Origin: Aphrocallistes beatrix
Lineage: Eukaryota > Porifera > Hexactinellida > Sceptrulophora > Aphrocallistidae
Direction: 5' to 3'
Length of the DNA stretch: 64,000 nucleotides
Assembly: GCA_963281255.1 (NCBI GenBank)
Contig: OY725496.1
Span: 1,116,001-1,180,000, forward strand
Positions 19,269 through 51,816 of the stretch are shown one piece after another (position 1 is the first letter of the stretch; each line of letters starts with the position of its first letter). A program made the position numbers and the translations under genes. The notes beneath the pieces were generated by a model, which saw only the letters and a program-made list of their open reading frames with translations, was not told the origin of the DNA and did not search any database.

Positions 19269-20177
19269 TTATTGAGAAGAATATATTTGCAGTCCATACT
19301 TTTTGTTTGATGACACAATAACTAAGTTTAGTCTTGAAGTGAAAGCTAATCCATGAGGATATGAAAACTTCCCTACTTGGTGTCCATATTTCCCCAATGT
19401 TTGGATGAGAGCTCCATCATTTGAAAAGAACTCAATTTGGTGACCATAGTAATCGCTAAAAATTAGGCTCTTAGCGTCAACACAGAAGAATAGAGGTAGA
19501 TCCACTGGCATTCCATCACCACGTGTGATTAGAGAGCGTATCTTGAGTCCGGAGAGAGTAAATACGTGGACACATGGAGAATCTTCGGGACTAAGTACGT
19601 ATATTTCATCTGTCGTCAATTTTACGTCATAGGGTTTGTGCAAGGATGGATGTGTTACAACTCTAATAGGGTGTAGACAACTATCTAGGATCTGAATTCT
19701 GTCGTTATCTCTGTCAGCTATGTAGATGTCTCCGTTTGTAAAGATGCAGAGTTGGCGGGGTTCATCAAACTGCCCGATATCCGATCCTTTACTCCCTACC
19801 CTAGCTACCATACGGAGTTCAGTCTCTATCTTCAAGTGAAACACAGCGTGGACCATCCTGTCGGTTACATATACATTGTTTTGGTCTATGGCTATCCCCC
19901 ATAATGATTCCATGTTCTCGTGACTGTAGTTTTCTAAATATTCACCTGTCTCTGAAAATATGGACAATCTTGCAAACTTAGGAGATAGACGTCCTTCAGC
20001 CACAAATATATGGTCGTTAGATGGGTTAATAGCAACACCACGAGGCCCCCAAAGCTCACCAGGAGCTGTACCGCTGACCCCACGTGCTTCCACGTGATTG
20101 AAGATTGTGTTGATGTATACCTCCGTTGGATCTACAGGCTGTGAAGAAGGAGTAAAGTCAGGAAATGCTATGGCCAT
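19269..20177 (-). CDS. NHL-repeat beta-propeller protein (propeller only)
   Basis: 302-codon intronless reading frame starting MAIAFPDF. Six NHL-type blades can be read, roughly at residues 42-80, 90-120, 135-172, 182-212, 226-256 and 265-302, with typical PRGVAI, PRQLCI and PHGLAF turns and IQILD-like strands. NHL propellers bind proteins or RNA. This one has no RING, B-box or coiled coil, so an E3 ligase role is not supported. The start is fixed by the leader shared with the paralogues at 46740 and 56292 (...GTTGAATAG then ATGGCC). The stop codon overlaps an AATAAA poly(A) signal on the minus strand (19268-19273), implying a very short 3' UTR. It looks intact. Molecular function is unknown. 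Confidence 0.9.
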   Translation of the reverse strand: MAIAFPDFTPSSQPVDPTEVYINTIFNHVEARGVSGTAPGELWGPRGVAINPSNDHIFVAEGRLSPKFARLSIFSETGEYLENYSHENMESLWGIAIDQNNVYVTDRMVHAVFHLKIETELRMVARVGSKGSDIGQFDEPRQLCIFTNGDIYIADRDNDRIQILDSCLHPIRVVTHPSLHKPYDVKLTTDEIYVLSPEDSPCVHVFTLSGLKIRSLITRGDGMPVDLPLFFCVDAKSLIFSDYYGHQIEFFSNDGALIQTLGKYGHQVGKFSYPHGLAFTSRLNLVIVSSNKKYGLQIYSSQ

Positions 20178-23974: not shown

Positions 23975-25240
23975 TCAGAAAAGTTGGATACAGTGGTTGG
24001 GGTTATGAGACACAACAACAATCCGTCCTTGTGAATCCAGAGTTATACCCGTTGGCTCAACGAATTCCCCTTTCTCTTCTCCTTCCTTCCCAAACTTGTG
24101 GATCAGTGCTCCTGTGTAGGAGAATATGCAGACACAGTGACGGTATGCATCGGCCATTATAATGTTGAGATCTGAATCAAGAAGTAGACTACCCGCAGAC
24201 CATACTTGACTATCACTATCTTCTCCCTTACTGATCATCTGTCTTGAGAGGTGGTGAGATGCATTGTAGATTCGAATACAAGGATTTCCCGAACATAATA
24301 CAACAATCTCCTCAGCTGTTAGTTTAACATCTTTGGCATGTTTAATATCAGAAATGAAACAATTGAATGAGAGATCTAGATTGAGACACTGGACACGGTT
24401 ATTATCAAATTCGCAAATATAAATTCGTCTCCATTCTGTAGAAACAGTGATACCTCTAGGATCCTTGAATTCAAGTTCTCCACCTCCTTCCTTTCCAATT
24501 GTATATAAGAAATTCCCTTGAAGAGAATAGATGTTAAGTGAACAACCAATAGATTGAGTGACATAAACCTTTTCTTGAAGAATACAGATTCCAATTGGAC
24601 CATTCATTCTCTCACTGAACATAAATAAGAATTGAAACATCCTATCAAACACTTGAACACGAGCATTCCCAAAGTCACAGATGTAAAAATTATTTATATT
24701 AATATCCACAGTGATACCCTCAGGATTGCCAAATGTACCACGATTTTCGGAATATAAATAATGGTTCCCGAATACTGCTAACGGAACTCCTTTCTTCTTG
24801 TATTCACTGATCAATTTATCACTCTTCTTCTCGCTATTAACACGTATTGCACCCAGTGTACTCAATTTAGATTCCAAATCTAGGCTCCATTCAAAATCCA
24901 CATTCCCCATTCCTTTCGTTTTGTCGCATAGTACTTGTATCTTTAGTTCTGAAATCTTCTCATCAATCTGAGCCATACTTTGTTGGAGAATTTCTTTCAC
25001 TCTATTGCCTTTCAGAGTATTTTCTAACTGTCCCTTGGAAACAGACAGTTGTTCAATCTCTTCAGCTATTCCTCTTCCATGAAACGTATCTTCCAACTCC
25101 TGTACTTCTGCTAATAAAGATGTTTCTCTCTCTTGTAACAAATGATGAGCTCTAGCGAACTTCTGTCGAATTTCTCCACGAGCTCTATCGAACTGATTCA
25201 GGTTGTCATCTTCCTTCCTTACTAACTCAGCGCTAGCCAT
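23975..25240 (-). CDS. Coiled-coil NHL-repeat protein (TRIM-NHL-like without RING)
   Basis: 421-codon intact frame starting MASAELVRKEDD. Residues about 10-135 are heptad-rich coiled coil (LLQERETSLLAEVQEL, then KISELKIQV). Residues about 165-421 form six NHL blades: NPEGITVD, GPIGICIL, DPRGITVS, KDVKLTAEE, AGSLLLDSD and EPTGITLD mark the blade starts. In TRIM-NHL proteins this pairing follows a RING and B-box; here the zinc-binding part is absent, so the protein is probably a scaffold or sensor rather than an E3 ligase (inference). The closest relative in the window is the gene at 28514, which shares the order and the PRGI/DLSF blade features. The ATG at 25238-25240 is the first in frame. 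Confidence 0.9.
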   Translation of the reverse strand: MASAELVRKEDDNLNQFDRARGEIRQKFARAHHLLQERETSLLAEVQELEDTFHGRGIAEEIEQLSVSKGQLENTLKGNRVKEILQQSMAQIDEKISELKIQVLCDKTKGMGNVDFEWSLDLESKLSTLGAIRVNSEKKSDKLISEYKKKGVPLAVFGNHYLYSENRGTFGNPEGITVDININNFYICDFGNARVQVFDRMFQFLFMFSERMNGPIGICILQEKVYVTQSIGCSLNIYSLQGNFLYTIGKEGGGELEFKDPRGITVSTEWRRIYICEFDNNRVQCLNLDLSFNCFISDIKHAKDVKLTAEEIVVLCSGNPCIRIYNASHHLSRQMISKGEDSDSQVWSAGSLLLDSDLNIIMADAYRHCVCIFSYTGALIHKFGKEGEEKGEFVEPTGITLDSQGRIVVVSHNPNHCIQLF

Positions 25241-25964
25241 GACAATCTATGAAATATCTGTTTAACTTCAAGTGTATCGTATCAATGAACTAATGATAGT
25301 AGAGTGTAAAATAAGAATATTAGAAACTGGTTATTATGTGTGCTTTATACTAGACTATATTCGCGCTAGAATTTGTTTTTATAGGATATCAGCCTATTCG
25401 CACTACTGCATTATACAACATTCCTATCCATGACATCATATTCAGCTATTGCAATCGAGGTTCGAAAATAGATCAGTGGTCTATCAGGATGTTGCATTCC
25501 CACGGAGATAGTAATATATTCTTGCTCTCTATGATATTTCCAGATTATCACCCAGTGAGATTTATTAATTAAACAAAGTAAAACTGCGCATTCCTCTGAG
25601 CAGTGATTTTGTATTCAGGGTATATTTTCATTTATGCTAAAATGAACTCAAATATTATCATGCATTTCAAGAGCGGATTTGTAATAGATGATGAACTGAT
25701 TCTAAATTTAATTTGAGAGGAAACTTTGGCTGTTCCTATGTCCAAAACTATTAATGTTTCGTCAAGTTTTGCGAATGATCTACTGTATCTGTATGATTTT
25801 TGTAATTACAGTAGAAACCGTTTTTTTCTTACACCGGGTTTTCCGTATTAATCGGTCGGTTTATTCTTCATATAGGTATCTTACATCGATTAATTCTTAC
25901 TACATATATACTTGTAGATCTTAAAGGATAAAGCAAAAATGTCGGTCGAAAGACCGATAGTGCA
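25241..25964. other. Upstream region of the NHL gene
   Basis: No clear TATA box or repeat. A possible MITE left end, ACAGTAGAAACCG, stands near 25808 with no partner. Nothing else seen. Confidence 0.4.
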
Positions 25965-26869
25965 GCTCCAGGAAGTGACTCAAAGGAATATGAAATGTAA
26001 ATATTGGAATACAACGGGAAACACTCATTTTAGGGCATTCTAAGTGTGAGAATTGGAATATATATATACATATACATATTAAAATTCCCTATATTAGCTG
26101 TTGAAAACTCGCTTTTAGCTCAAAATAAGTTTTTTTGCAAAAGGTGTGAATATATGTAGATATCAATATGTTAATAACTCATAAAATATTCATGTTATTA
26201 CTTTCAAAGCGCGAAAATCGGTCCTGCATTAGTTGAGATCTTGCTTATATCTTTAAATAAAGCTTTGCAGTGGTGGTGTTAAAATATGAATATATACTTA
26301 TAAAACCCGGAAGTGATGAGATTTTGCGAAAAAAATGTTGATGGTGCACATCTACATCATAAAGAGATTCTACATGCGAAATTTGGAAAAAATCGGACTG
26401 TTAGATTTCGCAGTAGCGCGCGTACAGACATCATACATACATACATACATACATACATACATACATACATACATACATACATACATACATACATACATAC
26501 ATACATACATACATACATACATACATACATACATACATACATACATACATACATACATACATACATACATACATACATACATACATACATACATACATAC
26601 ATACATACATACATACATACATACATACATACATACATACATACATACATACATACATACATACATACATACATACATACATACATACATACATACATAC
26701 ATACATACATACATACATACATACATACATACATACATACATACATACATACATACATACATACATACATACATACATACATACATACATACATACATAC
26801 ATACATACATACATACATACATACATACATACATACATACATACATACATACATACATACATACATACA

Positions 26870-26903
<34 letters not shown>

Positions 26904-26990
26904 CATACATACATACATACATACGGACGGACGGACGAGATACTCCGTCCATGCCATAAGGGCATCTCCCTATTGGAGCTGCACTAAAAA
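25965..26990. mobile_element. TAGTGCAGCTCC element with microsatellite (family C)
   Basis: Left end TAGTGCAGCTCCAGGAAGTG and right end TATTGGAGCTGCACTA are inverted repeats. A second copy of the body occupies 38985-40033 and a partial one about 46132-46500. The (CATA)n tract lies inside, before the right end CCGTCCATGCCATAAG. Non-coding; class unclear, probably a DNA-transposon MITE. Confidence 0.68.
26431..26924. repeat. (CATA)n microsatellite, about 490 bp
   Basis: Pure tetranucleotide tract with a single visible interruption near 26898, ending in a short (GGAC)n run. Open frames of up to 249 codons across it are artefacts of the repeat. Confidence 0.99.
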
Positions 26991-28513: not shown

Positions 28514-29714
28514 ATGGCTACGCGTGAAGATATTGGAGGAAGTTTGGAGGGATTTCATCGGTTTGATGCTTTGACACAAGAAATAGAAAATAAGTTTTCG
28601 CACTTCCATTCACTCCTCGAAACACGAAGAGTGTCTCTTCTTGAGAGAGTGAAGAAGATGAGAGATCTCTACCAGCAGCATCAGGATCTGTCCGAAGCGA
28701 TAAAACAGCTGGAAGGAATGAGGAACGCTGCTAATGAAATGTTGAAAGGAAATTTTGTCGTTGGTGACAAGGATGATATCGTTCAAATACTGGATGGCAG
28801 GGTACAAAGAAAGAAAGGAAAAAAATCCGATTTAGAACTCATTTCTAATCAAAGGTTTCTCGACAATAGTGACGAGTTTACTGATTGTGTAAAAAGAATG
28901 CATTTGAGAGGATTAGAAGCAGTGGAGTATTGTAAGAGAAGAGAACCTTTAATCATGAAGGGGAAGAGAGGATACGGTGAAAGAGAAGTTATTGTTCCTT
29001 ATGGTATGGCTATTGATGTTACAAGTGATGAAGTGTTTGTAGTGGATTTCTATAACTCTCTAGTATGTGTCTATTCTTCTGAAGGAGAGTTAGTTAGAAA
29101 ATTTGGAGAAGAACAGTTGAATGGACCTTATGGTATCTGTCTATTTGGAAAATTCCTATTTGTATCAAGTTTCTTACGTTCAGTAATTTACAAGTTTGCT
29201 AAAACTGGAGAGTTTGTGAAGAGTACTAGCTTAGAAGGTGAGAATGCAATACAGCTTGAGAATCCAACTGGTATGTGTGTATATTTGTAATAAAGGACAT
29301 AACGGAATTGAATTGTTAAAACTAGATCTGTCATTTATTAAGAATTTCGGAGAAGATAAACTAGAATATCCACAAGATATCAAACCATTCAACTATCAGA
29401 TATTTGTCCTCGTTAAGCATGATAATACAATTCACACATTCAATACAGAACACAATTTTCTCCGTTCTATCCATTTCACTGGTCTACAGAGTCAGATATC
29501 TTATTCTTCATTCTTCTTCACAATTGACAATAAGGGTAGCTTTATAGTTAGTGTCAGAAAGGCTGGTTGTTTGAAAGTTTTCAATCCTTCAGGAGAATAT
29601 GTAGAGACACTAGGAGAAGGATTCCTACTTCAACCTCAGGGTGTTACAATGGATAATCAACAGCGTATTCTTGTTATTAGCGAGTCGAGATACAACTGTT
29701 TTCAAGCATACTAA
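28514..29714 (+). CDS. Coiled-coil NHL-repeat protein, one frame break
   Basis: Starts MATREDIGG at 28514. Residues about 10-90 are coiled coil (SLLERVKKMRDLYQQHQDL). NHL blades follow from about residue 160 (VPYGMAIDV, GPYGICLF). The frame breaks at about 29275, after NPTGMCV, and continues in another frame from about 29282 (YICNKGHNG, then LDLSF) to the stop at 29712-29714. Against the paralogue at 23975, about seven residues of the third blade are missing at the break. A short deletion therefore fits better than an intron, because the GTATGT there has no acceptor at a plausible distance. Either a young pseudogene or an assembly error. The last blades end PQGVTMD...NCFQAY. Confidence 0.8.
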
Positions 29715-29781: not shown

Positions 29782-29981
29782 NNNNNNNNNNNNNNNNNNN
29801 NNNNNNNNNNNNNNNNNNNNNNNNNNNNNNNNNNNNNNNNNNNNNNNNNNNNNNNNNNNNNNNNNNNNNNNNNNNNNNNNNNNNNNNNNNNNNNNNNNNN
29901 NNNNNNNNNNNNNNNNNNNNNNNNNNNNNNNNNNNNNNNNNNNNNNNNNNNNNNNNNNNNNNNNNNNNNNNNNNNNNNNNN
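29782..29981. other. Assembly gap (200 N)
   Basis: Exactly 200 unresolved bases between the NHL gene's 3' flank and one arm of a long palindromic repeat. The missing arm is probably why assembly failed here. Confidence 0.99.
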
Positions 29982-30955
29982 GCATAGTTATTGCGGTTTT
30001 CAAGATATGACCTCAACTGATCAAAATGCGTTTCCATAGCAACGCTGGAATGTAGCAACATTCCATAAAAATTATTCACTTTTCGCATCAACCCATTCAC
30101 AGCTCAGTTCTATACAAAGAAACTATAATAAAACAACCACTTAGAAGTGCCCTTAAACAACCTCTGAAATTCACCAAATGTGTCGCAAATAAAACCTATT
30201 GTGCAATCATATGATGACTAATCGAAATTTTAACAACGGATATGGATACTCTGGCGTCATATTTATGTATGCTGGTAATACATTTCGAAGCTCTATTCTG
30301 CGTCGTTCATGATTTTTGGCAGATCATGTATTTGATCAACCATCTTCGACCGCATCCCTGGTCAATTTTTGAGATTTAGATGGGTGGCCTTATATACAGA
30401 GTGCTATGTTCGGACTAAATATCGGTTGTTTAGCAAATATTATCCCTCTAAAATTAGCTTTTCAACTCATTAGTGTCATTTATTGCATTCCTATTACATA
30501 GCAACAATAGCATTACACACTGGTTATGTTTAGTCTGTCTGTGGTCAAATATACAACAGACTTATAATTCCAAATGTACATATCAATTGCAGAATGTTGT
30601 AAGAATTAGTGATATTATAGAGGAAGACAAAAAAGCATTTTCAAAATGGTAGAATTGAGAGTTGTCAGGTCAATTGTATATTTTTACAAAAGGCATAAAA
30701 TTTTGAATTATATATAGAAAGCGTTTACAGGTACAAAAATGTGAATAACTCAAAGAGAACATATGGAAACCAAATAAAATTTTGTATACAATGAATTCTG
30801 AATATAAACAGTAAAACACCCAAAAATAAAACAGTTTCAAAAATATACATTTCTGTTACGTCATAGTTCCGGTTTGCTTCGGGAGTTGGTTTCAGTTCCA
30901 GTTTTCACGAAGAAAAGGAACTCAAAACTTAATTTACTCAAGTATTTCGTTTTCT
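29982..30955 (+). repeat. One arm of the 2.3-kb palindromic element
   Basis: Collinear with 53175-54394 (GCATAGTTATTGCGGTTTTC, then GACCTCAACTGATC) and extending to GGAACTCAAAACTTAATTT, which matches the outer edge of the other arm at 52030. It lacks the MITE found at 53698, so it provides the empty site. Confidence 0.85.
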
Positions 30956-31760: not shown

Positions 31761-32184
31761 TACGTATATAAATATAGTGTAAAAGTATCCCAAATCCGTT
31801 GTTAGAATAAAGATTAGTCATCATATTATTGCGCAATAGGTTATATTTGTGACAAATTTAGTGATTTTCTAAGGCCATTTAAGGATACTTTTGAGTTTTT
31901 TATTATATAATTTTGTACAGAACTGACCTGTGTATCTGTTGATGCGAAAAATTTGAGCCTATGAGCCTAGGCTTGGGGGCGCCTCAGCTCGCTTGTGTTA
32001 TTGTTAATTGAGTATTGCAATTGAATAAACGATTAATACAACCCCTCTGCCTCTAGTGTTCTCCGGCAGAAAGGTTATATCCAGCAGCTGCGTTTTCCGG
32101 AAAGCGGCGCATGCATAAATATTTTGCTTGTTTCTCCTAATTTAAACTAAACATTATAGGTTTACAGCAGATTCTCCTAATAAA
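31761..32184 (+). promoter_or_regulatory. Upstream region of the VLIG-like gene
   Basis: 31790-31960 is a fragment of the long inverted-repeat family. The last 100 bp hold a possible TATA-like CATAAATATT at about 32113 and a leader ending CCTAATAAA before the ATG. Promoter assignment is tentative. Confidence 0.4.
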
Positions 32185-34320
32185 ATGGCAGGAGAGAATA
32201 AGAAGTTGGAAGTTGAACTCCAAAATCTTGGGCTCAAACAAAAGCCTTTGGAATTCATCCTGGAGAAAGGAGAAAAATTTATAGATTCACCAGAAATTTT
32301 AGCAAAAAAGTTCTCAATTCCTCTTACTTCAGCAAAACAAGCCTTGAATATTATAAAACGTCATAGGGACATACATATCTCCAAAGAAGTAAAGAGATTT
32401 GGAAAACACGTAAAAAAGAACCGAAATATGAATCTAAATGAGATAGCTCTATTATATGATTTTGACGATATTATAGTTACTGAGTTTTTAAAAGGCAAAG
32501 AAAAATCTTCATTAACTGATTTGGCGAAACAAGCGATAAAAGAAAAATATAACTCTGGGTATTCTATAACAGAAATCGCAAATCAATTAAGAGTATCTGA
32601 AATAAATATAGGAGAATATGTTGAGAATACCTTCATAACATTTACTGGAAGAGAAGGAAAGAGAGCTTTAGAAACAATTCAGAAATATTTTGAGATGTAT
32701 CCAATTATGAAGCTCAGAGAATTGATTGTAACAAAAGATGTTGAATTACAAGAGAAAATTTGCTTTGATTTGCTGAGAATAGATAAAAATGACTACGAAG
32801 ATATTGAAGAATATTTTATGAAGTTTGACGAGTCAGAAAATTTCTTTAAAATTGAAGAAGATTTAAGCATTGAAGCCAAGACATATATTAGGGCAAGCAG
32901 TATAGACAACACCAGAAAACTCAGCGTTCAAATAAATAGAATGCAAAAGGTGATCCGTGATTACCTACTACGGTTTGACCCAGATAAATCTCTCCTGCTT
33001 CATTGTGCTGAAGAGCAGTTACGAAAAATTCAAATATTTGGGGAAAGTTTCTGGTTTAAAACACTTATATCTCATACTACGTACAGATTGATCATTACAA
33101 ACTCATTTAGAGACTTAATTCAATATTCAAAGTCGTTGGTAGGTAGTTTACCAAAGAAGATACTTAACGAACTCTTACCATTAGCATTCTACTACATTAA
33201 GTGCAGTTTACCGTTAGATGAACTCACACAGATAATCTCTAATATAACTCACATACCGCTAACTACACTAGACCTATTCCATTTAATCTTTCAAATGTCA
33301 GATCCCGTAGTCAGAGGTCTATGTATAGAACACTATTCTTTCAGTAATCCAGTTCCATTCTACTATCCAATTCTCAGACCCTACTGCTTAGGACAAACAT
33401 CTTGTCAATTCGAAATCTGTAAAGAACTCTGGTATTCTCTACAACAGTTCAGTGGTTTAGTGTCATTTGGTTTAGGATGGGCTTCTTGGAATCCTATTGG
33501 AAAATCCCATTTGCTGGATTTAATGTTTGAAACTGATTTTGCTAAGGGAAGTCCTCAGAACAGTCCATTCCATCTAAATTCCATCGATATTCAGATGACT
33601 AAAAACCTCTTTGGACTAAAAGATGGTAATGAATCTACTCGATGGGCTTACATAGATTGTAACGGGTGCTCAGATTTCAACATCATTAAAGCAATATGCA
33701 AAAATTTGGACATTGCATTAATTCATGTTACTCATTCCGACTTTAGTGAGAACTATATACGCATAGAAGAAGAATTAAATATAATCACAGTCAATACAAA
33801 GCGTGTCTATGTATTTGTTCGAGACTGTCCAGAGAATGGTATAGAAATGCATAAGAATGTTATGAGTGCTCCAAAAATAACTGTACTTTTCATTCCTAAT
33901 CTAGTTAAGCAACAATTATCTTCAGATTTGAAAAAAATTGGTTATCAAGTTTTGCACTCTGATCCGAGATTTGCTGAGATCAATTTCCTTGGCCATCTGA
34001 TAAAAGAGTATGATAGTTGGGATAATTCAGATACCAAACTAATCGAAGCAATTAAGAAATACATTTACGCTGAAGTCCCGAGCAAATGTGAAGCTAATTT
34101 CCCTTTTTTAAGTTACTATCCACATTTTGTTGAATACATGAGTTGTTATTACGAAGCTTCTGGTTCTATGGACCAAAAAGAAATTGACGAACTAAATAGA
34201 AAATGTGAAATTCTTGCTAAACACCTTCAAAATACGAAAATTAGTGCAATAGTATGGTGCTTTAATGAAATTCTAGCTAAAGAAAATTCAACGCTTCTTT
34301 TATGGAAATTATTTCGTTGA
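32185..34320 (+). CDS. VLIG/GVIN-like very large GTPase, N-terminal part
   Basis: First of four successive frames of one gene spanning 32185-38706. Residues 1-200 contain four helix-turn-helix-like units spaced 44-49 residues (starting about 35, 84, 128, 177; the clearest is SITEIANQLRVSEINIGEYV). Residues about 240-700 match the region upstream of the GTPase in vertebrate VLIG proteins: DLFHLIFQMSDPVVRGL followed by NPVPFYYPIL corresponds to the family's 'D...IF.CSD..LRQ...K...CQ.A.PLLLP' block, and SFGLGWASWNPIGKSHLL to its 'F.RLG....SKS.LLN' block. In mammals the family is interferon-inducible and related to GBP/dynamin-like GTPases; a defence role here is inference. The ATG is the first in frame. 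The frame stops at 34320, but a GT-AG intron (34252-34337) would bypass the stop. Confidence 0.85.
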   Translation: MAGENKKLEVELQNLGLKQKPLEFILEKGEKFIDSPEILAKKFSIPLTSAKQALNIIKRHRDIHISKEVKRFGKHVKKNRNMNLNEIALLYDFDDIIVTEFLKGKEKSSLTDLAKQAIKEKYNSGYSITEIANQLRVSEINIGEYVENTFITFTGREGKRALETIQKYFEMYPIMKLRELIVTKDVELQEKICFDLLRIDKNDYEDIEEYFMKFDESENFFKIEEDLSIEAKTYIRASSIDNTRKLSVQINRMQKVIRDYLLRFDPDKSLLLHCAEEQLRKIQIFGESFWFKTLISHTTYRLIITNSFRDLIQYSKSLVGSLPKKILNELLPLAFYYIKCSLPLDELTQIISNITHIPLTTLDLFHLIFQMSDPVVRGLCIEHYSFSNPVPFYYPILRPYCLGQTSCQFEICKELWYSLQQFSGLVSFGLGWASWNPIGKSHLLDLMFETDFAKGSPQNSPFHLNSIDIQMTKNLFGLKDGNESTRWAYIDCNGCSDFNIIKAICKNLDIALIHVTHSDFSENYIRIEEELNIITVNTKRVYVFVRDCPENGIEMHKNVMSAPKITVLFIPNLVKQQLSSDLKKIGYQVLHSDPRFAEINFLGHLIKEYDSWDNSDTKLIEAIKKYIYAEVPSKCEANFPFLSYYPHFVEYMSCYYEASGSMDQKEIDELNRKCEILAKHLQNTKISAIVWCFNEILAKENSTLLLWKLFR

Positions 34321-34337
34321 ATGTAATGTCAAAACAG
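34252..34337 (+). other. Candidate intron 1 of the VLIG-like gene
   Basis: GTATGG...AAAACAG, 86 nt, phase 0. Removing it joins the first frame to the second exactly and omits the stop at 34318-34320; the product would read ...ISAI then FKTSYTLEILWRE. An indel is the alternative. Confidence 0.5.
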
Positions 34338-35702
34338 TTCAAAACTTCATATACTCTAGAAATTCTCTGGAGAGAAGCATTGCTATCTAATAAATATAAA
34401 GTCACTAGTGAAAATGAACAAGACATCTATGGCGAATTGTTTTCAGCAAACTTCAGTAGCCACGTAGAGAGAGGAGAACCATTTGAATTGATTGATGGTG
34501 ATAACCTCAGATTCTTTAACCAAGATATTGATGTTTTGTTATCCAAGTTATATGAAAAACAGTATGATAACATAAAAATAATTGAAGAGAACACACGGCC
34601 ACCAATAGTTGTGAGCATATTTGGACCTCAGAGTTCTGGGAAGTCTACACTACTGAATTACTGTTTCGGTTGTAAGTTCTTGACTAGTGCTGGCAGGTGC
34701 ACCAAAGGAATATATGCCTCTCTCTCAAAGCTCAGTCAACCGATCAGCAAATCTGATCATTTCCTTATTCTCGATACAGAAGGACTAGATCCGATTGAAA
34801 GAGGAAAAACTCTTAAGGATACTTCATGCGTTCACTTCGACAGGACAATGGTCTTGTTTTGTTTAGCGGTATCACAAGTTGTTATCATTAATGTGAAAGG
34901 GGACATTGGAGAAGAAATGCGGAATCTTTTACAAATATGTGCATACTCTCTCAACAAATTGAAAGTGAGTAAGGTAGCAGCTCCAAAAATATTCTTCGTT
35001 CTTAATCAACAAGCGGATCCAGATCCAAACAAACATTTGGAAACAATCAATACTCTTCTGGGAAAGCTTAATGAAGGGTCAGATTTAATGGAAACGGAAG
35101 GATTGAATATTTCAGATTTGATACAAGTTTCAAGAGAAAACCTTTTTGTCCTCACATCTGGATTCAACTCGCAATCTCTGAACACTGAAGCAACCAGACT
35201 ATTCGATTCGGATCTAGTTAAATTATCTCCAACAGTAAGTTTCGCAAAGAAGTGTGCTGATTTGCGCATGTCAATTATTAAACAGCTGAAGGAAGATTAT
35301 TTCGATAATTTAAGACCATTCAACACAATGAGTGAATGGATGGAAATGTCTGGTGTTATTTGGGACACTATCGTCAAATACCAAGACATCGTAAAGTTTA
35401 GAAACGTTGAAGAACTGAAGTGTAGCATCTCACTTAGCAAAATAGTGAGTGATATTATGAAATATACAATTCATTTCAATAAAGAACAGTATCGCGAGAT
35501 TACAGAAAAAATAATTAACCAAATTAAGAAAATTGAAGTATTGAGTCATCCCAAAGGAATATTGGAGAATATGAAGAAAGAATTAGACAATGTATTCAAA
35601 GATTATACAGAAAAGGCTCTCTCAGACTTTGAAGAACATTGTCAAGCAGATCCCTTACTCAAGAAAATGGTTTATATGTGTGATGAAGTTAAATCAACTT
35701 GA
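34302..35702 (+). CDS. VLIG/GVIN-like GTPase domain segment
   Basis: Second frame of the same gene. The real exon probably starts at 34338 (FKTSYTLEILWRE, like the conserved 'LEH..RE' block before VLIG G domains). By residues counted from 34302: the P-loop GPQSSGKSTLLNY is at 108-120, the switch-I-like GRCTKGIYAS at 131-140, the Walker B/G3 motif LILDTEGLDP at 155-164, and INVKGDIGEEMRNLLQI at 196-212, matching the family's 'INV.GE...EM...LQ'. FFVLNQQADP at 231-240 corresponds to the G4-like strand, with NQQA in place of the vertebrate HQNV. All nucleotide-binding residues look present, so GTP binding is expected. The rest is charged helix. The frame ends at 35702, bypassed by candidate intron 2. 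Confidence 0.9.
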   Translation: MEIISLNVMSKQFKTSYTLEILWREALLSNKYKVTSENEQDIYGELFSANFSSHVERGEPFELIDGDNLRFFNQDIDVLLSKLYEKQYDNIKIIEENTRPPIVVSIFGPQSSGKSTLLNYCFGCKFLTSAGRCTKGIYASLSKLSQPISKSDHFLILDTEGLDPIERGKTLKDTSCVHFDRTMVLFCLAVSQVVIINVKGDIGEEMRNLLQICAYSLNKLKVSKVAAPKIFFVLNQQADPDPNKHLETINTLLGKLNEGSDLMETEGLNISDLIQVSRENLFVLTSGFNSQSLNTEATRLFDSDLVKLSPTVSFAKKCADLRMSIIKQLKEDYFDNLRPFNTMSEWMEMSGVIWDTIVKYQDIVKFRNVEELKCSISLSKIVSDIMKYTIHFNKEQYREITEKIINQIKKIEVLSHPKGILENMKKELDNVFKDYTEKALSDFEEHCQADPLLKKMVYMCDEVKST

Positions 35703-35737
35703 GCAGGCTCATCTACATGGAAAAAAAGATTTATAAG
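35670..35737 (+). other. Candidate intron 2 of the VLIG-like gene
   Basis: GTTTAT...TTATAAG, 68 nt, phase 0, connecting ...LLKKM to DKIKFEIKARL. An alternative donor at 35688 (GTTAAA) with the same acceptor gives 50 nt, also phase 0. RNA is needed to choose between these and a simple frameshift. Confidence 0.4.
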
Positions 35738-36985
35738 GACAAAATCAAATTCGAAATTAAAGCAAGATTGACTGAAATAAAGTTAAAGGAGGATATGATT
35801 AATTTTCAAGAAGCTATTGAGAAGAATGTTGATAAATATTTAGAGTTAACCATTAAAGAACAGGAAATAGAATTTGAAAGTGTCTGGGTTGGTTGCTTCA
35901 GGAATGATGACAAAGATGAAGAAAAAACTGAGCGCGATGAAAAATTTGAGGATTTATATTCTGTATTCAGGATGGAATCAAAAACTATGGAAAACAAGCA
36001 AACAATTTATTCACTATTTCGCAATCAGAACTTTGACATGGATAACATAATTCAAACGCTTGAAGTGGAAATTCTAATCAGATTTTGTGGGGGTCTTCAT
36101 AACAATGCAGTATCTGATCAATTCATATATCCTTGGAAAGAGAGCCGAGTACCTTTAAAGGATATGAAACCTTATACAGGGAAAGAAAAATTTGAATACC
36201 TGAATGAAAATTCATTTTTCTTGAAAGGAGAAAGAAGAAATCGTGCAAGAAAGACGAAAATTCAGCTACGTTTTCAGGAATGGGTTCCATCAGATTGTTA
36301 TCCACTGGTAAGATATTGTTCAGGACACTACAACCATCCTGATATCATCTGGAATCCTGGGAAGAGAAAGCAAATTCTATTGCTAGCTTCCCAACTAAAA
36401 GATCCAAGAAATTTCACCAAGAGTACTTGGAAAAAATTTATTTATGACATATCTAAACGCGTTCAGGAGTTTATTCTTAAAGGTCAAAATATATCTCACT
36501 CAATTGTGAAGGAGATCGTAGACTTTCTGTGTCACATCTGCAAAGTAGTGAACTATGAAATTAATTTTATCGAAGCGAAATTGACAAATGCCGCTGAAAG
36601 GACGATATCAACATATGCATTCGCTTTTGCATTCAAATCACTTCTTGAATCCAAAATTAGGAAACAAAGAGAAGATAAATTAAATGAAAATGAAAGTAAA
36701 AAGATGAACCTTAAGTATTTCTTGCAAAAGGTTGAAAATCGGAAATTGGCAAGGGGAAATTGGGAACGAAAGGAAATGAGAGTGGGCGATCAGACAATAG
36801 CGAACAAATTTGCCAGAGATTTTCTATCCGCAGTATGGCGAAAGGTTTACACAGAGTGTGAACAGAGTATTCAAGAAGAACATTTCGATGCGAAAACAAA
36901 CATACTTTCACATCATAATATTTTATTCCTAGCAAATAAAAAGGTTACTGAAGAACTTGGCAATAGTGATAGAAGCGAAATATAA
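35699..36985 (+). CDS. VLIG/GVIN-like GTPase, helical linker segment
   Basis: Third frame of the same gene. There is no ATG at its start (the frame opens at a TTG; the first ATG is 35717), as expected for an internal exon. The sequence is mainly charged amphipathic helix (DKIKFEIKARLTEIKLKED; EAIEKNVDKYLEL), like the long stalk-like region after the G domain in VLIG proteins. The block CHICKVVNYEINFIEAKLT, followed by STYAFAFAFKSLLE, resembles the vertebrate segment ending 'A..YAF.F.FK.L'. The frame ends at 36985, bypassed by candidate intron 3. Confidence 0.82.
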   Translation: MSRLIYMEKKIYKDKIKFEIKARLTEIKLKEDMINFQEAIEKNVDKYLELTIKEQEIEFESVWVGCFRNDDKDEEKTERDEKFEDLYSVFRMESKTMENKQTIYSLFRNQNFDMDNIIQTLEVEILIRFCGGLHNNAVSDQFIYPWKESRVPLKDMKPYTGKEKFEYLNENSFFLKGERRNRARKTKIQLRFQEWVPSDCYPLVRYCSGHYNHPDIIWNPGKRKQILLLASQLKDPRNFTKSTWKKFIYDISKRVQEFILKGQNISHSIVKEIVDFLCHICKVVNYEINFIEAKLTNAAERTISTYAFAFAFKSLLESKIRKQREDKLNENESKKMNLKYFLQKVENRKLARGNWERKEMRVGDQTIANKFARDFLSAVWRKVYTECEQSIQEEHFDAKTNILSHHNILFLANKKVTEELGNSDRSEI

Positions 36986-37011
36986 TCAATGAAGGTAACT
37001 GCGTTATTCAG
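36944..37011 (+). other. Candidate intron 3 of the VLIG-like gene
   Basis: GTTACT...GCGTTATTCAG, 68 nt, phase 0, with a pyrimidine-containing acceptor. It joins ...FLANKK to FICNHNQNLRRVFQEE in the fourth frame, which is open from 36973. Confidence 0.5.
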
Positions 37012-38706
37012 TTCATATGCAACCACAATCAAAACTTGAGAAGAGTCTTCCAAGAAGAATGGCTCAAGATAATAAATGAATTTCATAATATAATTGTTGG
37101 AAGTATGAAAAAAAAATTCATAAAACAAATTGCAACAATAAAGCAAGTCTTAAAAGAGCTATCAGGTGGGCTTATTGAAAACTGTAAAACCAAAGAGCGT
37201 CCAGATGGCATAGGATTAGATTCAGATAGTAACTTTGAGATTGCTAGTGCTGGACAAAAAGAGGAATTTGCTAGCATTTCAGATCCTAAAATCCGAGAAG
37301 CACCTTTTAAAGCAATGGTACTATTTTTGAAAATGTACCTAAAACCAAGAGTAAACCAAGAAGATTTCAACAATATTTTTAATAACATCTTTGAAGTAGA
37401 TGATGTCAGAATGAAAAAGAATCAAGTAACTTACGTGTTATTTGAAAAATCACATAATCCAGCACTAGTGCTAGAAGAAGAAACTTTTAAAATGTTAACT
37501 GATACAAATATGTTCAGGAGCACTGAGACTATATTCAACATCAAAATATACGTACAGGAATTCCTGCGTACGTTAGATGGCTATGAATTTCAGGTAACTG
37601 AGGCTGAGTATGAAAAGATTTTAAAAGTCACTAAAGAAAAATTCGAATCTCGCATAGTTAATTGTCCATACCCATGTCCTAGTTGCGGTAAGTTTTGTGA
37701 AAAAGAAATACATCCGCATGGGGGAAAATGTCGAATTATGACAGGTCATCAGATATGTTCAATGGGAGGGAAGGTCTGGAATACTAACGAAGATAAAACT
37801 GCAATATTGTTAATGTGTGAAGACTACAACGATGATACTCAGGTGCTGATACCAGGACAGAACATGGAATGGGGTAAATTTAAAGAGAAGTGCGGAGATC
37901 AGTGGGATTGGACTCTTCCGATGGATCAAGAATATGTAACTTTACAAGAAGAGAATCGTGACAGAATGAAAAATATCTGGAATAAATTCGGAAGAGAAAT
38001 ACTCAAATATTACGGAAACAGAGGTACACATATCGCCTACATTCCTTACACCTCTCCTGAAGAGATATACGGATCTCTATTCTTACTAAAATACTACGTC
38101 TGTTTCGTCATTGATGGAACCAATCAAATGCCTATTGAATATATTAAAAAATGGGTTTCAGATACTATAACAGATTCTCAACTTGAAGGAAAATCGAAAT
38201 TCAGAGTAATCGTCTATCATGGTCATGACAGCACAGACTGTGTTGAAAAATTTCCAAATGGTTCTGGATTTACTTCAGATGCCAAGAGCATACAAGGCTT
38301 CCTTGAAAACATTACTACTTATGGCAATGAAAAGAACGAATTTGCGATGTTACATGGTCTAGCTACAGCAGGGAAGGAAAGTGATTGGAAATTGGGATTT
38401 GGGATTGAAAATATAATTGCTCACTATTATGTCGAACCTACAAATGGATGCTTCGATATATTTGCAGCTCAAGGAAAATGTGATCGAGGTTGTCTATTCG
38501 ATTGGAAAGAAGATATCAATGATAGAATAAATAAAATCAATATTCAATATAAACGAAGCAGGCTTATTCCGTACTCCCATCCTGAATATATTTCTAGAGA
38601 TATTACTTGTGCTAGTAGCGAAACTCCATCTGGTTTAAATCTTAATTTTGGAAAGAAATTTAGACCTAAAACACAGATTTTCATTGATTACAAAACAGAA
38701 AATTGA
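37012..38706 (+). CDS. VLIG/GVIN-like GTPase, C-terminal part with Cys/His and vWA-like domains
   Basis: Fourth frame of the gene, ending at the TGA at 38704-38706. Counting residues from 37036: 1-200 are helical; 210-241 hold a Cys/His cluster (C210, C214, C217, C221, H226, H228, C232, H238, C241), as in the C-terminal zinc-like cluster of VLIG proteins; about 354-475 look like a von Willebrand factor A fold of the type found in alpha-kinase and VWA proteins. That fold is seen as YVCFVIDGTNQM (degenerate MIDAS, DxTxx instead of DxSxS), FRVIVYHGHDSTD, SGFTSDAKSIQGFLENI and AMLHGLATAGKESDW. The vWA assignment comes from pattern recognition only. About 2,100 residues in total after splicing, close to vertebrate VLIG length. 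No poly(A) signal was identified near the stop. Confidence 0.85.
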   Translation, partial: FICNHNQNLRRVFQEEWLKIINEFHNIIVGSMKKKFIKQIATIKQVLKELSGGLIENCKTKERPDGIGLDSDSNFEIASAGQKEEFASISDPKIREAPFKAMVLFLKMYLKPRVNQEDFNNIFNNIFEVDDVRMKKNQVTYVLFEKSHNPALVLEEETFKMLTDTNMFRSTETIFNIKIYVQEFLRTLDGYEFQVTEAEYEKILKVTKEKFESRIVNCPYPCPSCGKFCEKEIHPHGGKCRIMTGHQICSMGGKVWNTNEDKTAILLMCEDYNDDTQVLIPGQNMEWGKFKEKCGDQWDWTLPMDQEYVTLQEENRDRMKNIWNKFGREILKYYGNRGTHIAYIPYTSPEEIYGSLFLLKYYVCFVIDGTNQMPIEYIKKWVSDTITDSQLEGKSKFRVIVYHGHDSTDCVEKFPNGSGFTSDAKSIQGFLENITTYGNEKNEFAMLHGLATAGKESDWKLGFGIENIIAHYYVEPTNGCFDIFAAQGKCDRGCLFDWKEDINDRINKINIQYKRSRLIPYSHPEYISRDITCASSETPSGLNLNFGKKFRPKTQIFIDYKTEN

Positions 38707-40627: not shown

Positions 40628-41107
40628 TTAGAACTTAGTGGAGTCATAGCTAAAATACTTCCACATGCCAAAAGTCAGCTCTCTGTGCCTTGCAATTGTA
40701 TGTATACCTGTGGCAATCTCTGCGTCTATAAGACGTTTAGTAAACGACCTTACAGTCAAGCGAGTGCCATTACACAAACCCTGAACAGAATCAAGATTCC
40801 GCAGGAGAATGATAGATGCAAACTCTTTAAGCTTCAAACGATGAGGGGGCATACCATTAGGATTTAGAGAGTTCAAGAACTCCGTGGGGTATATGACAGC
40901 TTGCGTATCATCAACTGAATCTGCACTTAAAAATATTTGATCATCTCCAGGTATCTGTCGCATAACGTAATCGTTTATGGCATCTACTGTCTCATTCTTT
41001 GGAGACATTAAGATTCGGCGACTCATGAAATCCTGATCAAGGTAATTATTCACAATGTCACCATAGACAAGAAACCAAATCAGAAATATCATTTCCCGGG
41101 ACAACAA
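40628..41107 (-). pseudogene. Helitron PIF1-like helicase, C-terminal piece
   Basis: Reads PKNETVDAINDYVMRQIPG, IYPTEFLNSLNPNGMPPH, KLKEFASIILLRNLD and GLCNGTRLTV, a block highly typical of Helitron/PIF1 helicases. It then changes abruptly at about 40690, after AEIATG, into the Heli-A tail. The last helicase motifs (the 'LAFA.TINKSQGQT' region) are therefore missing. Confidence 0.88.
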
Positions 41108-41246
41108 ACTTGTCGTCGATGTGAATCATGTGATCCTCATCTTCGAGTTCAGTGGCCTCTCCAACCCTCAATAAGAAGTTGGAGAACTCACTCACTTCAA
41201 GTGAGTCCTGAGAAGATAATTTCCGTATGCGCATATTAATAGTCAA
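41058..41246 (-). pseudogene. Helitron helicase, internal piece
   Basis: INMRIRKLSSQDSLEVSEFS then NFLLRVGEATELEDED fits the 'NMR......F..WLLR.G.G' segment between helicase motifs. It continues the 41249-41989 piece in another frame. Confidence 0.75.
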
Positions 41247-41248
41247 AT

Positions 41249-41989
41249 TTAAACCTTAACATAACGCCAGAAAGATGACCTGTTGAGACATGCAGAAACA
41301 ACATCACCTCTGGTTCCTCGTCTAATTATAGGCAGAATCTGACGGAAATCACCTCCAAATACTATAACCTTGCCGCCAAATGGTAGATCGCAAGAGCACA
41401 GGTCTCTCAGAGTTCGATCCATGCACTCAACAACATGCTTATGAGACATTGGAGCCTCATCCCAGACCAATAAACTTGCACGCTGGATGAAGCGGGCAAG
41501 CACACTCTGCTTAGTAATGCTACACGCAGAATGTGCATTGGTCGAGAGAGGAACTTTCATTCTCGAATGTACAGTCCTGCCACCATTTAGGAGGAGTGCC
41601 GCAATCCCCGAAGAAGCCATTGCGAGGGCAATCTCTCTCCTAGAACGGACCTTAGCTAACAGTGTATTGTAAACGAAAGTTTTACCTGTACCGCCAGGTC
41701 CATCCACGAGGAACACCTTAGGATAGACCGCAGAATCATCAATGGCCTTCATCACAGTGTTGAAGACAATCAGTTGGTCTGCATTGAGCATTGGCACATT
41801 GACACGCACCATTTCCAACAGATCACTAACACAATAATCAAGTTCATTCTGTATGATTCTGGGTTCTTCGTACGGATTACGCATATGCTTAGGGACAGGC
41901 ATACCTGGGTAATCCTCTAAAGACTTTCCATGTCTCTGTAAGCGATTCTCAATATCCAACAATACACAGTTTAAAATGTGCTCATCCAA
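41249..41989 (-). pseudogene. Helitron PIF1-like helicase, N-terminal motifs I-III
   Basis: Walker A VDGPGGTGKTFVYNTLL, then ALAMASSGIAALLLNGGRTV, Walker B LLVWDEAPMSHK and motif III KVIVFGGDFRQILPI are all intact in this 246-codon stretch. Coding homology extends upstream to about 42240 (VLWEYNQASLSEDFLCRAKR). PIF1-family helicases unwind DNA during rolling-circle transposition. Confidence 0.92.
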
Positions 41990-42245
41990 TTGGACGTCAA
42001 GAACTACTCGCTTAGCACGACACAGAAAGTCCTCAGATAAAGAGGCCTGATTGTATTCCCAAAGGACTAAGAGATCAGCTGGGACACTAAATAGGAGGGT
42101 CGTGACAAAGAGCTGGCAATTTTTGATCCGTCATTGTCACCTTGGATATCGGCCCGATCAATTGGAGACTTTGATACTATCTAGTGGACTCCATTGCCTA
42201 CCTTCCATATCAATATCAAGTTTCTACTATTTATACTTTGGCTAA

Positions 42246-42470
42246 TATAGGAGAAATGGTAAGTGACAAAATGCTGTGTCATCATGCTGATTCAGCATAA
42301 ATCAAAAATCATATACCGAGGTGCACATTTCCATATCACTTTGCACCTCCTGTAAAAATTTCAAGACGATATCTCTTAAACTCCGGTCAGGATACGAATT
42401 TCGGACGGCCGGCCGGAACACCCTCATTTTAGTACTGTGCATCCTATGCTATTAGTATAGTAGCTATGCT
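42246..42470. other. Non-Helitron insert within the Helitron
   Basis: This segment does not continue either flanking Helitron reading frame. It contains CTATACTAATACTATAAATA and short inverted words (AGTATAGTAGCTATGCTAC). Probably a small MITE; termini not resolved. Confidence 0.45.
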
Positions 42471-42471
42471 A

Positions 42472-42829
42472 CTATACTAATACTATAAATAGGAAGCACA
42501 CTAAAAATGGATTGTATGATACAACCCATCTATTATCCAAGCGTGCCCCACACACATTAACAGCACGGTCGTCGTTTCTACGACGATACAATGGGTAGCC
42601 ATCTTCAAACGTTGTAGTAACTGCTGAAAATGCCTTTGGGAATCTCTTAGAGCATTTCCCGTCTTTTAAACAGGGAGCGCTCTTATTGGCAACACCACAT
42701 GCACCGTGCATCATACAGCGTTTAAGATAGCGTGCAGTCGAGGTTGGAGAATCGCGTCAGGGAACTCAGCACACACAATTCGATCATACTCACACAGTTC
42801 CCTGGGTTTATCATGATCCGATAGAATAA
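42472..42829 (-). pseudogene. Helitron Rep, HUH and zinc-like region
   Basis: From 42714 downward: MMHGACGVANKSAPCLKDGK, CSKRFPKAF, DGYPLYRRRN and RLDNRWVVSYNPFL, the standard Helitron Rep C-terminal block. Just upstream, in another frame (42829-42715), are the HUH residues in PHAHILIILSD followed by DKPRELCEYDRIVCAE. One frame change separates it from the piece at 42830. Confidence 0.86.
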
Positions 42830-43654
42830 TCAGAATGTGCGCGTGAGGAGACCTCTCTTTTGGAATTCTATAGTATAAACATGATCAAGGGGTTTACCCA
42901 AGATGTGTTTATTCATAAGATCCGAAATCAATTCACTCAACTTCAGTCTAAAGACTCTAACTACTAGTAAATCAAGGCGTTCATAAGCTTTCTGATCTAA
43001 TATGAGAGCGGATGTAATCTCATCCCATTGCGGATTACATGTAAATGCAATGAAATAGTCTGGCTTACCATATTTCCGGACAATACTCATTACATCCTGG
43101 TACAGCTCGAACATCTGCCGAGGAGAGCCAGTATAGGAGGAGGGAAGCACTATCTTATGTCCTAACTCTCTGGAGTCTACGTCACCCGCAGCGACTGCAT
43201 CAGCCAATCCATAGTAAAGATCCACACAAATCTTCTTCTGATTGGTCCTGATGTAGTTCAGACGCTGTTGTTCTATCTTGGCGTATACATCCACAGCATA
43301 CTGATGGAAAAGTCTACCACTCAGGTGTAGAGGACTCAAGCGGCTCCGTACCATCAGTCGGTATGGATAATACTCCATAGTGGTGACATTTCCTCTCTCT
43401 TTCGAGTGAAGAATGTTGAGATGCCAGCCGTCTTCACCTAGAGGGAATAGTAGGACATAGTGCAGTGTATCGTACGCACGGTGAGTCTCGGTAATGTGCT
43501 GAAGACCGCCCTTCCGCGCGTACAGCACTATATCCCTGCTGGCGACCTCTTCTCCATAACCATCATTCGGGAGAATGACAGCTATTTCCTGAGCAGTGGG
43601 AGCGTTATAACGTCGAGAATCTGGACACCCGTCTGCTTTGATCACCATTATCAC
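42830..43654 (-). pseudogene. Helitron Rep N-terminal domain
   Basis: 274 codons matching the Helitron-like N domain and the start of Rep: YDTLHYVLLFPLGEDGWHL, MVRSRLSPLHLSGRLFHQYA, VDVYAKIEQQRLNYIRTNQK, VLPSSYTGSPRQMFELYQDV and YFIAFTCNPQWDEI. The frame is lost just before the HUH motif. Confidence 0.92.
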
Positions 43655-43655
43655 G

Positions 43656-43960
43656 TCACCTCCACCCTACTCTCGCATCAGATGCCACATAAGGATTAAC
43701 TTCATGCAGCATATGCTGCAATCCTTTTAGCTCAGGGAGCGCAGCATCTCCAAGATGGCGCTGACGGTTCGCCACTTCGGCATCAGCGGTTCCGTCATGA
43801 ATGTAGATCTGTGCGAATGCGGGTGCCTCGCCTTCGTTAGGCATCAACCGTCCGATACGATGGTACATCACTCCGTGTATACGAAATGTGTACACTCCCC
43901 GCTTAGCATTAGCCAGACACTTATCGAAGTTCGCTCCAAGAGAAGCGAATGATATTAGGA
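43656..43960 (-). pseudogene. Helitron Rep protein, upstream piece
   Basis: SFASLGANFDKCLANAKRGV, YTFRIHGVMYHRIGRLMPNE, FAQIYIHDG and LQHMLHEVNPYV are a recognisable Helitron N-terminal block. The homology stops at about 43960-43970, marking the truncation. Confidence 0.86.
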
Positions 43961-44096
43961 CAAAACAAACTCAAAAAGTATTATATTGAAATAAAATAGG
44001 CCTAAGAGGAATGGCAATAGCGATGTGCGGGAATATTTCATGTATGTATTAAAATTCTACAACTAAATTGGTAAATTAGTAAACATTCATTTGGTT

Positions 44097-46669: not shown

Positions 46670-46739
46670 TATAAAATAGCCTTTCGAGACTTGTTCATTC
46701 ACAATACTATCCTATTAGTAATCTTCCAAGTTGAGTAGA
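46670..46739 (+). promoter_or_regulatory. NHL-gene core promoter and leader
   Basis: TATAAAA at 46670-46676, then CTTGTTCATTCACAATACTA and CCAAGTTGAGTAG directly before the ATG. The same order stands before the NHL genes at 56292 and 20177. The likely start of transcription is near TTCATTCACA. Confidence 0.72.
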
Positions 46740-47603
46740 ATGGCCATAGCATTTCCCGACCCACAGCCTGTAGACCACTTAACAGCTGTTGCGAGGAGAG
46801 GTAAAGCTCCTGGTGAACTCTGGAATCCTCGTGGAGTCGTTATAGACACAGCCACTAAACACATATATGTCGCTGAGGGAGGTTCATTTCATAATTTTGC
46901 GAGAGTGTCTACTTTTTCAGAGTCGGGTGAGTACCTAAACAGCTACACTCACGAGTACATGGAATCATTATGGGGAATCGCCGTACATGGAAACAACGTG
47001 TATGTAACGGACTGGGATGTACACGCTGTGTTCCACTTGAAGATAGAGACTGACTTCCGTATGGTGACTATGCAAGGGAGCAGAGGGTCTGGTATCGGAC
47101 AGTTTGATGAACCCCACCAACTCTCCATCTCTACTAATGGAGATGTGCACATAGCTGATGCAAACAACAACATAATCCAAATCCTAGATTGCTCTCTACA
47201 TCCGATGAGAGAGGTAACACATCCATCCATGCACAGACCTTGTGACGTGAAATCAACGGTAGAAGAAATGTACGAACTTAGTTATGTAGATTCTCCTTGT
47301 GTGCATGTATTCAATCATACCGGACATAAGATACGCTCTTTAATCACATGTAGTGGAGGAATACAGCTTGCCCCCATCTTCTTCTGTCTCGACTCCAAAA
47401 AGAATTTAATTATCAGCGATTCGAGTTCATACCAGATCAAGATATTCTCAAACGAAGGAGCTCTCCTCCACACGATAGGGGAACGTGGACACCAAGTAGG
47501 AATGTTTCGTCGTCCTCTTGGATTAGCTCTGACTTCAAATCTAAACTTAGTTACTGTGTCCTCTAACATTGACTACGGACTTCAAATATTTTCTACTCTA
47601 TAA
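46740..47603 (+). CDS. NHL-repeat beta-propeller protein (propeller only)
   Basis: 287 codons from the ATG at 46740 (MAIAFPDPQPVD), chosen over the in-frame TTG at 46731 because the ATG context is shared with both paralogues. Six blades: NPRGVVID, LWGIAVHG, PHQLSIST, PCDVKSTVE, PIFFCLDS and PLGLALTS mark the blade starts, each followed by a strand like VYVTDWDVHAVFHLK. No RING, B-box or coiled coil. Intact. Closest paralogue 56292-57156, then 19269-20177. The 3' flank (47604-47780) is shared with 57157-57330 and 58741-58900. Confidence 0.9.
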   Translation: MAIAFPDPQPVDHLTAVARRGKAPGELWNPRGVVIDTATKHIYVAEGGSFHNFARVSTFSESGEYLNSYTHEYMESLWGIAVHGNNVYVTDWDVHAVFHLKIETDFRMVTMQGSRGSGIGQFDEPHQLSISTNGDVHIADANNNIIQILDCSLHPMREVTHPSMHRPCDVKSTVEEMYELSYVDSPCVHVFNHTGHKIRSLITCSGGIQLAPIFFCLDSKKNLIISDSSSYQIKIFSNEGALLHTIGERGHQVGMFRRPLGLALTSNLNLVTVSSNIDYGLQIFSTL

Positions 47604-50650: not shown

Positions 50651-51015
50651 AATATACAGCAATATTGAAAAAAGAATTGAAAGGTAATTCCCATTTCTAT
50701 ATAATTTATTGTAAATATTACTATAGATGAGTAAGTTCATAATTTTGATGAATATATATTATTCATCTAAGCTGGTACTCGTAAAATCACATCGGAAATT
50801 TTTAATCATACTGAGGTATTTTACACAACAAAGTACTCGTCGTACATAGCGTATTACAATTCAAATATATAGTGACCACCCTAATATATAACCTCGCAGC
50901 GCTAGCAAGCGAAGCGCGCTTTATATATTAAATACTCATTTATTCCCATCTCTCATCCTGTTTATTAACAGAATATACTTAATATACAAAATTTTAAAAA
51001 CAACAATCAGAAATA

Positions 51016-51816
51016 GTGATTAATACATTTTTTAAAATACCTGATATCAACCTTGTTAGCAATTGTTTTAAGTATGTAAAAAACTTTTGTAGGTGGCATG
51101 TCAGCTTAAAAAAGATGTCAAAAAGGGAAAATATCGATAAGAGGAGAAAGTCTGAGCACGAGACACCCAACAACATCAGCTGTATTGAAAAATATCTGAC
51201 TAGCAACATTAGGGCGGAATTGTTGCAAGGAATATTAAATCATAGCAAAGACATAAAAATTTCTCAACAAAAATATTTTAACTATCGTGCAGCACTAATA
51301 GGGGAAGTAATCTATCGAAGTGCACAGAGAAGTGGAGTCATTCATGGCATGAAAAAAAAAGAAGTGGCCAATGCCAAATTTAATGGTGAAAATTTAAAGA
51401 TAATAGTGTATGAGCACAAAAATGGGAAATTAAAACCAGCTGTAGTGTTCTTAGAAAAATTAGCCTCAGAAGCATTTATAAAATTTCTGAAATATATCCT
51501 CCCAAAAATAGAAACGCCATTTGATTTAGATGGACCATTTTTCATTTCGTATAATGGAAATAAGATAAGCCATCAAGGGATAAAACAAAGTTTACAAAGG
51601 TTATCAACTTTATCAGGGACGCATAAGAGTATTACTTCTACACAATCAAGGATAGCGGCAGCCACTTTCATTGCTAATAATAATCCTGAGAGTACACAAA
51701 TTGTAGCAGACTATATGCAACATGAGGCCAGTACCGCAAATAAGTACTATCGCCAAATGGGAGGCGGAAGCCAACTCAAAAATGCATTTGATGTAATTGG
51801 AAAAATGAAATATTAA
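51016..51816 (+). CDS. Tyrosine recombinase (Crypton-like) catalytic domain
   Basis: 266 codons; no ATG at the left edge of the frame (first in-frame ATG at 51115, MSKRENIDKRRK), so the true start may lie in an upstream exon. Motifs along the frame fit the tyrosine-recombinase fold: the first catalytic Arg region YRSAQRSGVIHGMKKKEVA, the beta-hairpin Lys region VYEHKNGKLKPAVV, the box-II-like stretch THKSITSTQSRIAAATFIA (Arg in the expected place, the usual His shifted or replaced) and the C-terminal DYMQHEASTANKYYRQ carrying the His and the nucleophilic Tyr. The element could be a Crypton; a DIRS-type relative cannot be excluded, as no reverse transcriptase or termini are seen. The domain itself looks whole. 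Confidence 0.8.
   Translation: MINTFFKIPDINLVSNCFKYVKNFCRWHVSLKKMSKRENIDKRRKSEHETPNNISCIEKYLTSNIRAELLQGILNHSKDIKISQQKYFNYRAALIGEVIYRSAQRSGVIHGMKKKEVANAKFNGENLKIIVYEHKNGKLKPAVVFLEKLASEAFIKFLKYILPKIETPFDLDGPFFISYNGNKISHQGIKQSLQRLSTLSGTHKSITSTQSRIAAATFIANNNPESTQIVADYMQHEASTANKYYRQMGGGSQLKNAFDVIGKMKY

Follow-up and report, generated by a model that had tools for sequence, protein, structure and literature searches.

The analysis of a 64,000-nucleotide stretch of the glass sponge Aphrocallistes beatrix (contig OY725496.1, positions 1,116,001 to 1,180,000; hereafter, the window) revealed that four abutting stop-free frames at 32146-38706 (+) jointly encode one giant GTPase, belonging to a lineage-expanded, intronless family. 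The domain order proposed for this family comprises a helix-turn-helix (HTH)-like head, a first large-GTPase domain (LG1), a second one (LG2), a helical stretch, a Cys/His cluster and a vWA tail; the window copy would be a broken member, and the family might act in GTP-driven defence. The family and its domain order can be regarded as highly probable; the explanation taken as a whole, defence included, stands at about even chances.

The window was located in a genome of 100.5 Mb and 28 contigs. Taken in order, the four frames correspond to consecutive segments of full-length relatives (up to 61%, 75%, 67% and 61% identity for frames 1 to 4, respectively), an agreement for which sequence comparison excludes chance. 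They are parts of one gene, as the initial annotation had proposed, and not separate unrelated transcripts. The same annotation had described a complete member; instead, the window copy is one reading frame broken three times, each time by a -1 shift.

Frame 2 embeds LG2, which matched URGCP_GTPase (PF25683) with 101.7 bits (cut-off 55, E 4.9e-29) and has its P-loop and DTEG motif intact, so that the VLIG-like nature previously attributed to this G domain is well founded. The same frame also exceeded the cut-off of the GBP N-terminal GTPase domain (PF02263, 30.6 bits, cut-off 21.1), a match unlisted for the intact relative P0001; frames 1, 3 and 4 gave no Pfam match above cut-off. When the PDB was searched by sequence, P0001 retrieved five distinct sequences at E ≤ 1, the best being GBP2 at E 0.0032, and P0122 retrieved none at E ≤ 0.1. 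The structure model of frame 1 points to a further large-GTPase domain, LG1, absent from the initial annotation and identified here, whose fold matches include atlastins and Sey1 and whose motifs GKS, DC and RD are found in 52/52 aligned rows. Upstream of LG1 an extra N-terminal region does exist, as had been claimed; what had been called its repeats are HTH-like units. No Pfam family matched the window's own head; HTH families were above cut-off in the relatives P0032 and P0066, the former carrying a tandem array of a unit like the third one of the window head.

At the other end of the protein, frame 4 contains a Cys/His cluster, probably zinc-binding, whose residues are all kept in 55/55 rows with the only exception of H247 (53/55). 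It is followed by a domain in which the vWA fold was recovered, in agreement with the C-terminal vWA-like domain suggested earlier. The metal-site motif of this domain (DxTxS / RD) occurs in 0/12 rows of the window's clade and in 41/43 of the other aligned rows; judging from this alignment, the window's clade has lost the motif. Neither the cluster nor this loss had been noticed in the initial annotation, nor had the existence of a family of many loci, described next.

The search of the genome with the frame-2 protein yielded at least 85 rows and, once five pairs of rows belonging to the same gene had been merged, 80 loci. Of these, at least 62, counting the window copy, belong to the family, and the other 18 are distant, with 25-35% identity. 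The 62 loci include two short fragments and one locus at a contig end; in 19 of them an uninterrupted frame of at least 2,180 amino acids was recognised by eye, single frames reaching 2,430 amino acids. Intact members are about 2,200-2,430 amino acids long, and the copies of this intronless family are clustered in arrays. Two neighbours, L015 and L017 (C2, about 10.7 kb apart), exhibit blocks of 99-100% identity beside blocks of 58-69%, looking as if they had exchanged sequence. A promoter element common to the family did not emerge from the 900 bases upstream of 13 copies, which gave only stretches shared by some pairs.

The designation "VLIG-type" given initially is only partly adequate. The PF25683 match speaks in its favour; however, PF25496 (URGCP domain) was found exactly at the distant loci, all 18 of them (19 rows, one locus having two), and at 0/62 family loci, with none before the G domain in window frame 1 nor in P0001, and the URGCP_GTPase score of the window contrasts with the 385.8 bits of P0123, one of the distant loci of the same genome (PF25496, 155.2 bits). 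On these profile comparisons, the family studied here is a divergent sister of the canonical one, VLIG-like and not canonical VLIG. Two GTPase families of one genome are thereby separated, to both of which automatic annotation would give one interferon-related name.

P0001 matched 138 proteins and, among the 120 listed, the sole named organism was the glass sponge Oopsacas minuta (P0040 and P0063), which is in keeping with the early-branching animal proposed as the source. With the C-terminal part of P0122 as query, 89 proteins were matched, and a named organism is given for four: the two from O. minuta, P0139 from the ciliate Tetrahymena malaccensis and P0140 from the rotifer Adineta steineri. 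Since the last two combine VWA_4 with a GTPase domain, the GTPase-plus-vWA combination probably extends beyond sponges, either as one family or as separate ones. According to a quick G-domain tree, the window falls into a 23-row clade with a Shimodaira-Hasegawa-like approximate likelihood ratio test (SH-aLRT) support of 100; only this clade was used, the branches to P0123, P0139 and P0140 being too long for placement.

The three breaks of the window copy admit different readings. The frames might be exons, or might yield a single protein through programmed frameshifting, and the common direction of the three changes would agree with this. However, the aligned parts of neighbouring frames overlap by 1 base at two junctions and lie 8 bases apart at the third, leaving no room for introns unless conserved residues were lost, and the intact paralogs, uninterrupted at the break positions of the window copy, keep a single frame throughout. 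Both introns and programmed frameshifting were thus rejected, and such a reading appears extremely improbable. The gene might instead be intact in the animal, with the protein working as proposed below and the three shifts being consensus errors of the assembly. The 20 best-scoring other copies were taken whole; ten are single-frame (one of them, L018, truncated) and ten are broken. Together with the window copy, these 21 copies harbor 14 shifts, 11 of class -1, to which all three window breaks belong, and 3 of class +1, plus five in-frame stops. Moreover, L019 is broken in the genome, yet the database protein P0011 (2,235 amino acids), 99.6% identical over 1,333 residues, is intact; the -1 excess and this case make an assembly error possible for single copies. 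The ratio of non-synonymous to synonymous substitution rates (dN/dS) of the window frames, calculated against the four nearest of 12 long frames, is 0.14-0.30 (dS 0.81-1.55), i.e., purifying selection, suggesting that the gene remained functional over most of its past. On the other hand, the five in-frame stops, which are spread over four of the 20 copies other than the window's, are not explicable by indel errors and denote real decay in the family; about 28 residues of the reference are also missing at the third break; and the database contains the same truncated 711-amino-acid frame-1 protein (P0141, on a 115,827-base contig), which may derive from the same assembly. Assembly error as the sole cause of the breaks is thus possible, although rather doubtful. 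From the sequence comparison, the window copy is a recently broken or mis-assembled family member, which probably makes no full-length protein unless the breaks are assembly errors.

As for the function, the intact members most likely work in the cytosol as machines that are driven by GTP and assemble by themselves, in the manner of GVIN1 and the GBPs: the GTPase domains would pair once nucleotide is bound, and the resulting assembly would coat or trap an intracellular target, the choice of which would fall to the head and the tail. All four properties involved, namely GTPase activity, assembly, recognition of a target and a role in defence, are attributed to the family by analogy. The presence of two GTPase domains, the lack of a membrane-anchor candidate, the arrays of copies, the mosaic neighbour pair and the faster evolution of the ends compared with the core (as seen in the dN/dS comparison of the frames) fit a diversified cytosolic defence machine. 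The "cell-autonomous defence factor" of the initial annotation is therefore retained as the best functional guess, putative and resting on the analogy with GVIN1; this mechanism may equally well be right or wrong. Several points weigh against it: sequence exchange was clear in just 1/6 pairs compared, LG1 is devoid of the first glycine of the classical P-loop, PF25496 is missing from the family, and LG2 also scored 58.8 bits against RHD3_GTPase (PF05879, cut-off 42.4), a match that would fit membrane remodelling too. Interferon is not known from sponges, so that a vertebrate-type induction is not expected. The RHD3_GTPase match, together with the atlastins and Sey1 among the fold matches of LG1, leaves room for a non-immune family shaping membranes or organelles, e.g., in glass sponges, whose tissue is syncytial. 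However, no transmembrane candidate was detected by hydropathy in P0001 and its relatives, and tens of clustered, partly decayed copies would be unusual for a housekeeping membrane factor; a membrane-shaping role is thus improbable.

If the intact members coat microbes, giant-GTPase immunity of the coat-forming type would go back to sponges. Where an animal is syncytial, a pathogen that has entered any one region has entered a large share of the tissue, so that cell-autonomous immunity should matter greatly. A broader and quite speculative idea, considerably more likely wrong than right, is that glass sponges, whose tissue is largely one continuous cytoplasm, defend it by a large, sequence-exchanging repertoire of giant GTPases with sensor heads. 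In this view, a conserved coat-forming engine built on two GTPase domains would carry exchangeable modules for recognition, namely an array-capable HTH head and a vWA tail with a repeatedly switched-off metal site, and the repertoire would correspond, inside the cell, to diversified families of immune receptors; GTPase-plus-vWA may even predate animals. Such head and tail recognition modules are not described for GVIN1.

No paper on the window's GTPase family was found in the open-access literature searched; the word VLIG occurs in the available text of a prawn transcriptome (PMC6805343), and the words GTPase, interferon and GVIN are absent from the main texts, as available, of the papers on the genomes of Oopsacas (PMC10280926) and Aphrocallistes (PMC10282587). 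In the accessible part of the latter, single-exon tandem expansions of AIG1-domain genes are reported and discussed as immune (PMC10282587), which by analogy is a parallel case.

The coordinates of all the features are reported in Table 1. The window also harbors NHL-propeller genes, a very large and mostly single-frame family with many open frames near 404 amino acids, many of them in arrays on the same contig; a genome-wide search with the segment 28514-29287 alone returned 149 matches (147 of 2,015 candidates scored). Of the four window frames scanned (those starting at 19269, 23975, 28514 and 46722), three had NHL over cut-off, the frame-broken 28514 copy being below it. A fragmented Helitron is situated downstream of the GTPase copy, at a distance of about 2 kb; capture of the GTPase gene by it is unsupported, since the copies lie in arrays with flanks common within subgroups, although Helitron ends were not searched for. 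Neither the tRNA scan (bacterial code) nor the Rfam scan returned anything for the window.

Table 1. Features of the window (positions counted from its first nucleotide).
Feature	Position	Strand	Remarks
Frame 1	stop-free 32146-34320, first ATG 32185	+	724 codons; HTH-like head, helical region, LG1; runs to first frame break
Three HTH-like units	32239-32640	+	frame-1 model residues 19-152; helix pattern of model
LG1, large-GTPase fold of GBP/atlastin kind	33337-34020	+	model residues 385-612
Frame 2	34281-35702	+	473 codons; LG2, VLIG-like
URGCP_GTPase match	34458-35075	+	frame 2
P-loop GPQSSGKST	34624-34650	+	frame 2
DTEG	34773-34784	+	frame 2
Frame 3	35693-36985	+	430 codons; between LG2 and C-terminal part; runs to third frame break
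Frame 4	36973-38706	+	577 codons; helical part, Cys/His cluster, vWA-fold tail, stop codon
Cys/His cluster	37663-37749	+	C231, C235, C238, C242, C253, H247, H259 of frame 4
vWA-fold domain, metal-site motif altered	38071-38670	+	frame-4 residues 367-566
NHL-propeller gene	19269-20177	-	
NHL-propeller gene	23975-25246	-	
(TACA)n array	26423-26924		about 126 copies, perfect-looking
NHL-propeller gene	28514-29714	+	
Run of about 200 N	about 29790-29990		between NHL copy and GTPase copy; assembly gap or masked stretch
Helitron, fragmented	40628-43970	-	Helitron_like_N, PIF1 helicase, Pif1 2B domain in separate frames
NHL-propeller gene	46722-47603	+	
Tyrosine-recombinase-like frame	50998-51816	+	PF00589 27.1 bits, just at cut-off
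NHL-propeller gene	56404-57156	+	
hAT transposase frame	60363-61901	-	512 amino acids

The comparison with known systems places the window's family close to, and yet apart from, GVIN1, VLIG and URGCP. It shares with them a G domain that is VLIG-like and exceeds the Pfam cut-off, a Cys/His cluster located towards the C-terminus and a tandem pair of large-GTPase domains (the LG1 fold, then LG2), a plan reported for human GVIN1 in the accessible text of PMC11974893. GVIN1, described in the parts available of PMC11974893 and PMC12133148 as forming coats on bacteria that invade human cells, has 1,808 amino acids (PMC11974893) and is thus shorter than the intact members found here. Besides the weaker G-domain score and the missing PF25496, the window's family differs in its HTH-like head and vWA tail. 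Unlike the GBPs, it has two G domains and no GBP C-terminal helical domain in Pfam scans of the four frames or of P0001, and its members are about four times longer. Atlastin, RHD3 and Sey1 resemble it in the profile and fold matches of LG2 and LG1, and differ in that hydropathy gave no transmembrane candidate in P0001 and its relatives. The ciliate P0139 and the rotifer P0140 (the latter named "VLIG-type G domain-containing" by its source) are likewise long and combine a GTPase domain with a C-terminal VWA_4 that exceeds its cut-off; however, they were matched in the C-terminal part only, and URGCP_GTPase reaches 48 bits (cut-off 55) in P0139 and is unreported for P0140. The O. minuta proteins belong to the same family, P0040 (named "Interferon-induced very large GTPase 1") and P0063 being 43-44% identical to P0001 over 96-97% of its length; P0040 carries both URGCP_GTPase and VWA_4, and the two proteins differ from the window copy in having the vWA metal-site motif intact.
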